Shown here piece after piece: positions 50,546 to 53,469 of a stretch of DNA of 55,073 bases (position 1 is the stretch's first letter; each line of letters starts with the position of its first letter). The translations under genes and the position numbers were made by a program. This DNA is from Candidatus Woesearchaeota archaeon (GTDB lineage: Archaea; Nanobdellota; Nanobdellia; Woesearchaeales; 21-14-0-10-32-9): contig JAIPET010000008.1 in NCBI GenBank assembly GCA_021736975.1, positions 1-55,073 on the forward strand. The letters are read 5' to 3'. Under the pieces are notes generated by a model. The model made no database searches. It was not told where the DNA came from and was given only the letters and a program-made list of their open reading frames with translations.

Positions 50546-51604
50546 TTAGTATTTAAGTATTTTTCCATCTATTTTTATTGTTGGATTTTTTATTACTTGA
50601 TCTAGGTGGATTATGCTTTTTATGTTTCCGCCAAACCATGAATTGCTTCCTAGAGCAAAATGGCAAGTTCCGTATGTTTTTTCATCTATTATTGTTGCGC
50701 CTATTATCTTTGCTTTTTTATTAAGTCCTATTCCGAATTCGCCTATTTTCCATACATTTTCTGGATGTAGTGATTTGTTGTGCGCCCATTTTAGTGTTTC
50801 TAGAAGTTTTTTTGCTTCAAATGTGTTGTTTGTGATTGTTGCTATGCCGTTTTTTATTTCTAATTTTATTGGGTTTTTTATTAGGATTGTTTCGTCTTTT
50901 AGTCTTGCACTTCCATCTATTATTATTATTCCATTTATTTTATTTTCATTTGGTGCTATGTATGCTTCGGTTCCTGGTAAGTTTCCTCCTTCTCCTGGTT
51001 GTTTGTATATTCCTGTCGCTTTTTTTCCTTCTATTCCGGATACGTCGATTTTTATGTTTGTGCCTATTTTTGTTGTTACTTCTATTGTTTTTGCTTTTGT
51101 TAATATTTTTCTTATTTTTTCTGTTTCTATTTCTGCTTCTTTGTAGTTTATGTCTATGCTATCAAGTATTAATTGTAGGTTTTCATTTTTTATGGTTCCA
51201 AGACTGCTACTTGATATGAATTTATGTTCGTTTTTTGCTGCGAATTTTCTAAAACTTAAACTTAGGCCTTCTAGGCGTCCTATTCTATTTGACATGTTTA
51301 GAATTATCACGCTTTTTTTTGGAAGCTCTTTTATTTTTTTTATTGCTATTAGGTCTGCATCATCTCCTCTGCCTTTAAAATTTTGATATATTGTTTCGTA
51401 GTTTAATTTTAGTTCTTCTGCAGCTAGAGAATATGCGTTTGTTAGTATAGGGGATATTAGGCTGTCTTTGTATCCTTTATCTCCTATGATTAGTACTTTT
51501 TCGTTTGTAATATTTAGATTTTCTTTTAGTATTTTTTTGAATAGTTCTAATTTAATTTTTTTTTTGAATCTTTCTTCATTTATTATTTCTTTAATTTTTT
51601 TCAT
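50546..51604 (-). CDS. M29-like leucyl aminopeptidase family protein
   Basis: 352 aa. C-terminal catalytic region with GGNLPGTEAYIAPNE, IIIIDGSARL, WKIGEFGIGLNKKAKIIGAT, DEKTYGTCHFALGSNSWFGG and IIHLDQVIKNPTI, in the order seen in M29 metallo-aminopeptidases, where Glu, His and Asp bind two metals. The N-terminal domain is alpha/beta. No signal peptide, so cytoplasmic peptide trimming. Monocistronic, divergent from RNA element P. Confidence 0.85.
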   Translation of the reverse strand: MKKIKEIINEERFKKKIKLELFKKILKENLNITNEKVLIIGDKGYKDSLISPILTNAYSLAAEELKLNYETIYQNFKGRGDDADLIAIKKIKELPKKSVIILNMSNRIGRLEGLSLSFRKFAAKNEHKFISSSSLGTIKNENLQLILDSIDINYKEAEIETEKIRKILTKAKTIEVTTKIGTNIKIDVSGIEGKKATGIYKQPGEGGNLPGTEAYIAPNENKINGIIIIDGSARLKDETILIKNPIKLEIKNGIATITNNTFEAKKLLETLKWAHNKSLHPENVWKIGEFGIGLNKKAKIIGATIIDEKTYGTCHFALGSNSWFGGNIKSIIHLDQVIKNPTIKIDGKILKY

Positions 51605-51660
51605 TTTCTTTGTTATTATTGTATTTTCTTTGTTTTTTAAATTTTGTTTATTATTGACTT

Positions 51661-51777
51661 TATCCGGAATAACACATTTGTGTATATTGGTGCCCGTTGA
51701 GGCACATGCAGTCTAAAAGAGAATGCTTAGGCTGTGCCGTGCTTCTGTATGTATATTTATTCTATTCCGGTTGGAGC
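51661..51777 (+). ncRNA. Structured RNA element, family 2, copy P
   Basis: CCGGAATA (51664-51671) pairs perfectly with TATTCCGG (51763-51770). Inside: ACAC/GTGT hairpin, GGCACA/TGTGCC stem. Blocks shared with copy Q: GGYGCCC, CACATGCA, AAAAGAG, TGTGCCGTGCT, GTAT, TCTATTCC. A T-rich tract follows. TTTTTTAAATTT about 25 bases upstream could be its promoter. Confidence 0.5.
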
Positions 51778-51847
51778 TTTATTATTTTTTTCTTTTTTTT
51801 GTTTCTGAGTTATATTTATATATTGTTTGTTGTTTCATTATAATGTT

Positions 51848-52942
51848 ATGGGTAAAGATGATGCGAAAATTAAGGAGCTTGAAGATTTGATTGCTAGTTC
51901 TCAGTATAATAAAAGAACTCAAAAGGCTATTGGTCAATATAAAGCTCAATTAGCTAAGTTAAAGGTTAAAGATGAGGCTAGAAAAAGTGGTGGTAAGGGA
52001 GGTGAAGGTTATTCTGTTCGTAAAACTGGGGATGGTACTGTTGTTTTATTAGGTTTTCCTAGTGTTGGTAAAAGTACTTTGTTAAATAGTATTACTGATG
52101 CGGATTCTGAGGTTGGTTCTTATGCATTTACAACTCTTACTTGTATTCCTGGTATTTTGGATTATGAACATGCAAAGATTCAGATTTTAGATGTTCCTGG
52201 TATTGTTAGTGGTGCTGCGTCTGGAAGGGGTAGAGGTACGGAAGTATTTTCTGTTCTTAGAAGTGCGGATCTTATTATTTTGTTAATTGATGTTAATTAT
52301 CCTGAGCATTATAGTGTTTTGTTAAATGAAGTTTATGAGTCTGGTATTAGGATTAATGCTAAAAGGCCTGATGTTAAAATTAAAAAGACTGCTAAGGATG
52401 GTGTTAAAATTGGTAAAACTGTTAAGTTATCTTATCTTGATAATGAAACTATTACTGCAGTTTTAAAGGAGTTTAAAATTGCTAATGCTGATGTTGTTAT
52501 TAGATCTGATATTACTGTTGATCAGTTTATTGATTGTATTGAGGATAATAAATTTTATACTCCCGCGATTACTATTTTAAATAAGGTGGATATGGTTTCT
52601 CCTGAAAAGGCTGCTGAAGTTGCTAAAAAGATTAATGCAGACTTACTTATTTGTGGTAAGGATAAGGAACATTTAGAAGGGCTTAAAAAATTGATTTTTA
52701 AAAAATTAAAATTGATTAGAATATATTTAAAGGAGCCTTCTAATCCTCCTGATATGGATGTTCCTTTAATTGTGTTTAAGGATTTTTCTATTAAAGATAT
52801 TTGTAAAAAACTTCATAAGGATTTTGTTAAGAATTTTAAATTTTGTAGGGTTTGGGGATCGTCTGCTAAGTTTGCTGGTCAGAAATTAACTATGAAGCAT
52901 GTTGTTAAAGATGGGGATGTTGTTGAAATTCATCTTAGGTGA
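51848..52942 (+). CDS. DRG-type GTPase (Obg-HflX superfamily, with TGS domain)
   Basis: 364 aa from ATG 51848, about 25-30 bases after TTATATTTATATATTG; an in-frame TTG 21 bases earlier is unlikely. Motifs: helical N-terminus, G1 GFPSVGKSTLLN (69-80), G2 TTLTC, G3 DVPG (115-118), G4 NKVD and C-terminal TGS domain (PLIVFKDFSIKDICKKLHKD). DRG proteins act in translation with a partner (known of the family). Flanked by structured RNA elements on both sides. Confidence 0.95.
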   Translation: MGKDDAKIKELEDLIASSQYNKRTQKAIGQYKAQLAKLKVKDEARKSGGKGGEGYSVRKTGDGTVVLLGFPSVGKSTLLNSITDADSEVGSYAFTTLTCIPGILDYEHAKIQILDVPGIVSGAASGRGRGTEVFSVLRSADLIILLIDVNYPEHYSVLLNEVYESGIRINAKRPDVKIKKTAKDGVKIGKTVKLSYLDNETITAVLKEFKIANADVVIRSDITVDQFIDCIEDNKFYTPAITILNKVDMVSPEKAAEVAKKINADLLICGKDKEHLEGLKKLIFKKLKLIRIYLKEPSNPPDMDVPLIVFKDFSIKDICKKLHKDFVKNFKFCRVWGSSAKFAGQKLTMKHVVKDGDVVEIHLR

Positions 52943-52997
52943 ATTTTTATTTATCTAACTCTTTGTTTTATTTGTTTTATTTTTGTTGTTTTTTTAA

Positions 52998-53130
52998 GCT
53001 AATATGAAATCCTTAGTATTGCCTTGAAGTTAATTTGAAATATTTGCATTTTGTATAGCAAAATAGGTGCAAATATTGGTTTTTTGTTTTTGACGGAGTT
53101 AAAAATAGTGCTTCGCAATACAAAAAAAGA
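52998..53130 (+). ncRNA. Structured RNA element, family 1, copy B
   Basis: Closing stem GTATTGC (53016-53022)/GCAATAC (53115-53121); arm AATATTTGCA/TGCAAATATT (53039-53048/53068-53077, ten perfect pairs) topped by TTTTG/CAAAA; second arm TTTTTGAC-GGA-GTTAAAAA (53087-53105). Nearly identical to copy A at 8608-8745. Sits after the DRG gene and just before copy Q of family 2. Confidence 0.55.
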
Positions 53131-53152
53131 TGTTCATATTTGTCATTTTTTT

Positions 53153-53281
53153 AGGCTCTGTCTCAAATAATACTATTTCGTATACCGGCGCCCATATAGA
53201 CACATGCACGAACGAAAAGAGTGGATATGTTGTGCCGTGCTCTAGTATACTAATCTATTCCTTTCGGGACAGAGCCCTTTT
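53153..53281 (+). ncRNA. Structured RNA element, family 2, copy Q
   Basis: GGCTCTGTCTC (53154-53164) pairs with GGGACAGAGCC (53266-53276), followed by nine T, a good terminator on this strand. Inside are GTATAC/GTATAC (53180-53185/53245-53250) and an alternative ATAC/GTAT hairpin. Core blocks match copy P. The gene at 53332 has its own TATA (about 53290-53302) and SD, so this is likely a separate RNA. Confidence 0.55.
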
Positions 53282-53331
53282 TTTTAAAAAGATTTATATA
53301 TTTCTTTTTTAGTATTTTTGTTAGGTGACAT

Positions 53332-53469
53332 ATGTTAAGATGTGATTCGTGTGGTTCTGAAATGCGAGTTGGTAAAAAATACCTTTCGGGTAATAGCAGA
53401 TTTGCAGAATTTTTTTGTACGAATTGTTTTAACAGAAAGACTGTTTGTGAGTTGGTTGCTGTTAAATAG
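53332..53469 (+). CDS. Zinc-ribbon microprotein
   Basis: 45 aa: C-x2-C near the N-terminus (RCDSCGSEM) and CTNC near residue 29-32, a four-Cys zinc ribbon. SD AGGTGA three bases before the ATG. The stop codon overlaps the SD of the next small gene. Such ribbons often bind nucleic acid or ribosome parts; function unknown. Confidence 0.7.
   Translation: MLRCDSCGSEMRVGKKYLSGNSRFAEFFCTNCFNRKTVCELVAVK

Follow-up and report, generated by a model that had tools for sequence, protein, structure and literature searches.

Miniature transposable elements with a conserved structured core lie at a fixed distance upstream of promoters in a Woesearchaeales archaeon

Some eukaryotic retrotransposons, Ty3 among them, are known to be targeted via general transcription factors, and the archaeal promoter machinery is a simpler homologue of the eukaryotic one. 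Relatively little is known about MITEs (i.e., non-autonomous transposons) in archaea (PMC10969869). The prokaryotic MITEs reviewed there (Correia, QMITE, BOX, and the Sulfolobus and haloarchaeal elements) are short, non-coding, and multicopy, carry terminal inverted repeats (TIRs) and target-site duplications, occupy AT-rich intergenic sites, and form hairpins. The family described here is alike in all of these features, but it is placed base-precisely upstream of the BRE and TATA box and has a conserved, covarying core common to elements with different TIRs. Its autonomous partners resemble the IS5 family in their DDE domain, R-E-K signature, single transposase gene, length (~0.9 to 1.0 kb), TIRs beginning with GGCTCTGT, and duplications of 8 to 9 bp, whereas they score below the curated cut-off of that family and have as their target an archaeal promoter at a fixed distance. 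The closest mechanism is that of the Ty3 retrotransposon, which is targeted through TFIIIB (TBP and Brf1) (PMC8632968); a TBP/TFIIB-type complex defines the narrow window of insertion, which is a safe place within a compact genome. The present elements likewise keep a constant distance from the core promoter, on one side only. Ty3, however, inserts at yeast polymerase III genes with a retroviral-type integrase, whereas the present elements are cut-and-paste-type DNA transposons that would dock at ordinary archaeal promoters; they are not members of the Ty3 group. With the structured RNAs of Rfam, the core shares covarying helices and invariant loop bases, but it is embedded in transposons and its RNA form is putative. 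We found no report of archaeal transposons at a fixed TATA-box distance in the open-access literature searched.

The window (i.e., the whole 55,073-nt stretch of DNA analysed) belongs to a 1.31-Mb Woesearchaeales genome. The original prediction placed in it two copies of a structured RNA, P and Q, on either side of a gene for a DRG-type GTPase. The sequence blocks said to be shared by P and Q (GGYGCCC, CACATGCA, AAAAGAG, and TGTGCCGTGCT) were all found at the positions claimed, and TGTGCCGTGCT occurs twice with zero mismatches within the window alone. A search of the same genome with P as the query recovered 18 to 19 more copies (80 to 87% identity; E = 5e-19 to 3e-32), one weaker copy (E = 3e-6), and Q (E = 0.02); matches across the genome exclude chance as the source of the shared blocks. 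About 21 complete 123-bp copies are dispersed in this genome. The length is 123 bp in 20 of the 22 copies compared (122 and 125 bp in the remaining two), the ends are the inverted repeats GGCTCTAGCCGGAA and TTCCGGCCAGAGCC or variants thereof (7 to 12 of 12 bases match), and an exact 8-bp target-site duplication brackets 19 of the 22; one copy (L021) has a perfect 9-bp duplication. On the basis of the TIRs, the duplications, and the constant length, we classify the P/Q family as MITEs. The copies are also short, non-coding, and multicopy, with an empty orthologous site and an autonomous relative elsewhere in the order (see below). The perfect outer stems noticed earlier (CCGGAATA/TATTCCGG in P and GGCTCTGTCTC/GGGACAGAGCC in Q) are present, but they are TIRs; similarly, the T run ascribed to the end of Q exists but lies beyond the element and represents its target duplication, CTTTTTTTT. 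A small local hairpin (ACAC/GTGT against ATAC/GTAT) is not constant across the family and was dropped. The true bounds of P and Q are a little wider than first given (Table 1). Unpaired TIR matches at C12, C29, and C32 lie within coding or unrelated sequence and were rejected, and C15:16297, considered as an autonomous element, was rejected as a truncated 3' half. In two genomes (G174 and G175; five loci), several contigs stop inside or at core copies; since repeats break assemblies, the copy numbers are lower bounds.

Table 1. Features of the locus carrying P and Q (positions within the window)
Feature	Position	Strand	Detail
M29-type metallopeptidase gene, promoter adjoined by P	50546..51604	-	PF02073, E 4.5e-10
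BRE position ACAAAA and TATA box TTTAAAAA of peptidase gene	51634..51647	-	
P left target-site duplication TTATTATT	51648..51655	.	
Element P, 123-bp MITE	51656..51778	+	worn TIR GACTTTATCCGG...CCGGTTGGAGCT
P structured core, 71 nt	51682..51752	+	72.8 bits with covariance model R1
P right target-site duplication TTATTATT	51779..51786	.	
DRG-type GTPase gene	51848..52942	+	PF01926, PF16897, TGS
Different MITE stacked directly upstream of Q at one promoter	52997..53144	+	TIR AGCTAATATGAAATCC
Q left duplication ATTTTTTTA, worn, common to Q and the upstream MITE	53145..53153	.	
Element Q, 123-bp MITE	53154..53276	+	TIR GGCTCTGTCTC...GGGACAGAGCC
Q structured core, 71 nt	53180..53250	+	69.8 bits with covariance model R1
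Q right duplication CTTTTTTTT, worn (T run of the original prediction)	53277..53285	.	
BRE-like AAAAAG and TATA box TTTATATA (53293-53300), downstream of Q	53286..53300	+	
45-codon Cys-rich, zinc-ribbon-like gene, promoter adjoined by Q	53332..53469	+	syntenic in L297

The TATA box of the peptidase gene (TTTAAAAA) is 14 bp (8 + 6) from the end of P. A separate TATA box, TTTATATA at positions 51815 to 51822, read directly off the sequence, belongs to the DRG gene, and the 45-codon gene downstream of Q had zero Pfam matches. A sister species (G001) carries genes for the M29-type peptidase, the DRG protein, the small Cys-rich protein, a small membrane protein, and an HTH protein in the same order, with neither P nor Q. 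The absence of both elements from this syntenic locus makes the link with DRG coincidental; the copies are, moreover, dispersed genome-wide. As far as synteny can tell, the DRG gene is not functionally tied to P or Q. Nor is adjacency to translation genes general. Genes for ribosomal protein L3, aIF5A, and a RIO kinase adjoin some copies, and others adjoin genes for a proteasome subunit, an oxidoreductase, a DEAD helicase, and a peptidase.

We compared the insertion sites of 52 elements from many genomes, whose ends were defined by the TIR and duplication only. Outward from the duplication, TTTAWA occurs at +6 in 27 elements and at +8 in 11, with two or fewer at each other offset (Poisson estimate for 27 elements at one offset, 2e-42), and the site logo reads RNAA at the BRE position, then TTTATAAA. 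The TATA signal lies on one side in 45 elements, on both sides in 2, and on neither in 5; about 10% of the elements have no recognisable TATA box. The target sites are promoters: a start codon is located 24 to 36 nt downstream in 25 of 45 of them, compared with 21% of the intergenic TTTAWA sequences used as controls (n = 548; Fisher p = 1.2e-6). The fixed, one-sided spacing of TTTAWA and RNAA indicates that the upstream edge of a BRE/TATA promoter is the target of insertion, and insertion just upstream of the BRE keeps that promoter whole. The elements face the promoter both ways (27 versus 19) and sit outside the transcript of the adjoining promoter. Comparison of the sequences establishes both the mobility and the targeting of these elements.

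Several promoters have been hit more than once. At one locus (L032), two elements of different length are interleaved with three copies of one duplication (TACAAATA, element, TACAAATA, element, TACAAATA), followed by GCAAGT and TTTAAATA. At another (L033), the TATA-proximal copy has identical duplications (GGATTTTT and GGATTTTT), and the farther copy has a worn duplication (GAATTTTT). In the window, Q and the different MITE upstream of it are placed in one run of T. These stacks show that new insertions reuse one site beside the TATA box. They also weigh against random insertion with survival of the promoter-sparing copies only. Insertions into genes or promoters would be harmful and the copies are indeed intergenic, but such selection is expected to yield a minimum distance with a broad tail, rather than a spike at +6/+8 with two or fewer elements elsewhere, and it does not predict one site being hit repeatedly; we regard it as highly improbable. 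The MITE upstream of Q has a core (TGCCTTGAAG ... GACGGAG ... CTTCGCA) unlike that of P and Q, which was noted together with loci L028 to L033 and, by eye, also in 163- to 164-bp elements of the same genome with GGCTCT ends; this MITE is perhaps what had earlier been called the first family.

A TIR pattern search in other genomes of the order revealed autonomous elements whose ends match those of the MITEs. One of them (L137; 934 bp) has the perfect TIR GGCTCTGTCCAGAA, the duplication TAATCTAT, and TTTATAAA at +6, with an interrupted transposase frame; another (L138) encodes an intact 298-aa transposase and is without a clear duplication. The transposase matches PF01609 (DDE_Tnp_1; E = 1.7e-13), and D116, D186, R235, E239, and K246 are invariant, with the R-E-K signature present. 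Because its score against NCBIfam NF033579 (IS5), 106.5 bits, is under the curated cut-off of 140, we name it IS5-like only. Transposases of the ISL3 (PF01610) and IS1595 (PF12762) types, which the TIR and the 8-bp duplication had brought to mind, were found neither in the genome carrying P and Q nor in nine genomes. When a phylum sample of 279 genomes was searched with a profile built from six of the IS5-like transposases, 77 contained relatives, the genome carrying P and Q not being among them; zero transposases of this partner type were found in that genome (98% complete), so mobility at the present day is putative. Across the class, 21 of 23 elements with automatically set ends had convincing TIRs (L190 and L208, without one, were set aside), and most of the 21 have a TATA-like sequence at about +6. 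Elements with the TIRs GGCTCTGTAGAAA, GGCTCTGTTCAAAA, and GGCTAATATGAAACCC, whose transposases are ~25% identical, share this target. A common target despite differing TIRs and such low identity suggests that targeting is a property of the whole group.

These data bear on how the promoter is recognised. The transposase itself might read the BRE/TATA sequence, with transcription factors playing no part. What marks the sites is a sequence motif, strong sequence preferences are known in some transposases, and direct reading would also enrich BRE-like bases. However, the signal is one-sided (45 versus 2), whereas a transposase dimer reading its target should leave a two-fold symmetric one, true promoters are commoner among the sites than among other intergenic TTTAWA sequences, and the target is kept by transposases as divergent as those above, with their different TIRs. 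We therefore consider direct reading somewhat unlikely. We consider it very likely that P and Q are trans-mobilised MITEs targeted to promoters, and we favor a model in which their transposase would dock beside TBP-TFB. An autonomous relative, which was not detected in the present genome, would provide an IS5-like DDE transposase in trans. Insertion would occur at an 8-bp staggered cut (9-bp in some relatives) that directly adjoins the upstream side of the BRE and leaves 6 bp to the TATA box. The fixed distance is most likely explained by docking of the transposition complex on promoter-bound TBP-TFB or next to it. Since the BRE, TATA box, and start site would be left intact, an insertion would be nearly harmless and the same promoter could be hit again, giving rise to stacks with the newest copy beside the TATA box. 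The model is supported by comparison of mobility signatures, target spacing, autonomous partners with a common target, and conserved structure, while the worn duplication of Q speaks against it.

Two further observations concern the autonomous elements. In three of them, an inner repeat, GTATACTG...CAGTATAC or a variant, forms a hairpin that brackets the transposase start codon (L137, positions ~2370 to 2425; L138, 488 to 545; L149, ~1915 to 1972); its right arm encodes (Q/M)YT, and the hairpin may control translation. A genome of the same class (G353) has at least eight copies of an insertion sequence with the TIR GGCTCTGTAGAAATCC, with 9-bp duplications in the five copies whose ends were set and a clear TATA box at +6 in only part of them.

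The 71-nt core of P and Q folds as one long hairpin. A covariance search among related archaea, as proposed in the original prediction, showed that, of 353 genomes in the order, 20 carry the core (this one and 19 others; best E ~1e-18), and in a phylum-wide sample it was confined to this order. In an alignment of 76 distinct cores, pairing holds in 95.1% of cells, and both partners vary in 21 of 23 pairs. Its covariation score of 0.654 compares with 0.197 after shuffling; this alignment was fitted to the model and is hence biased toward structure. A plain MAFFT alignment of 11 sequences agrees, with double changes at 7 pairs, a level reached by 1 of 500 shuffles. The internal loop (CGCC...GAGG / CCGUGC) is non-palindromic and nearly invariant across many genomes, and in some genomes an extra covarying hairpin lies inside it (CCUG-GAC..GUC-CGAGG). 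Thus, P and Q do belong to one family with a conserved fold, as predicted, but not to a fixed RNA gene, given the TIRs, duplications, and dispersal. Strong covariation, invariant loop bases, the optional hairpin, and translational genes downstream of some copies would all suit a family of structured RNA genes or leader elements that serves the DRG or translation locus. Against this stand the same marks of mobility, the empty syntenic locus of the sister species, the position of the copies, always outside the adjoining transcription unit and in either orientation, and the proteasome, oxidoreductase, helicase, and peptidase neighbours. Furthermore, a search of 4227 Rfam families gave no match in the window and elsewhere only a chance hit (E = 0.71). 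This explanation is very unlikely.

The outer arms of core-bearing elements are unrelated among lineages (GTATACTGG, GGTGAGCAG, GAGCACTAC, AAACACTGA, and others), and a 163- to 164-bp element in the genome carrying P and Q has the same ends as the 123-bp family with a different core. A core shared by unrelated ends, together with the same ends joined to another core, suggests that cores are modules rather than transposase binding sites. Alternatively, the core may be functionless, its perfect arms arising from palindrome correction in replication or transposition. Wobble is indeed low (39 G.T among ~1,700 cells), and nested and fold-back forms exist, but palindrome correction does not account for the near-invariant, non-palindromic loop bases in many genomes with unrelated ends, or for one fold in elements with different TIRs. 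We consider it unlikely. Because the loop bases are invariant, a structured RNA or single-stranded DNA (ssDNA) is the likelier explanation, and it is probably in this single-stranded, folded form that the core serves the element. In the stems, G.T cells outnumber A.C cells (39 versus 20; p = 0.018, relatedness ignored), which weakly favours a functional single strand.

More broadly, and tentatively, a large group of archaeal IS5-like transposons and their MITEs may integrate by docking on TBP-TFB as a prokaryotic counterpart of Ty3. Many of them would carry an interchangeable, selfish structured core (RNA or ssDNA) that belongs to a new class and has been exchanged among lineages with different ends. 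If true, a bacterial-type DDE transposase placing its elements base-precisely and one-sidedly upstream of the BRE/TATA would be the Ty3 strategy in archaea, and three proteins would suffice to reconstitute such a factor-guided system in vitro. In uncultivated DPANN genomes, the insertions also serve as markers of promoters, and a core common to unrelated ends raises the question of what a transposon gains from a structured strand.

A scan of IMG/VR with a first core pattern yielded none; the 85 loci matching a second pattern were rejected as chance, since the covariance model found no core in the 80 examined. We considered whether the internal loop, with GA opposite GU, resembles a kink-turn, and make no such claim. 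At six loci, a core is nested in the apical loop of another core in the opposite orientation, producing double hairpins. Finally, one genome (G233; eight loci) contains core copies with variable short arms and without an obvious outer TIR or duplication, which are possibly a stand-alone form of the core.
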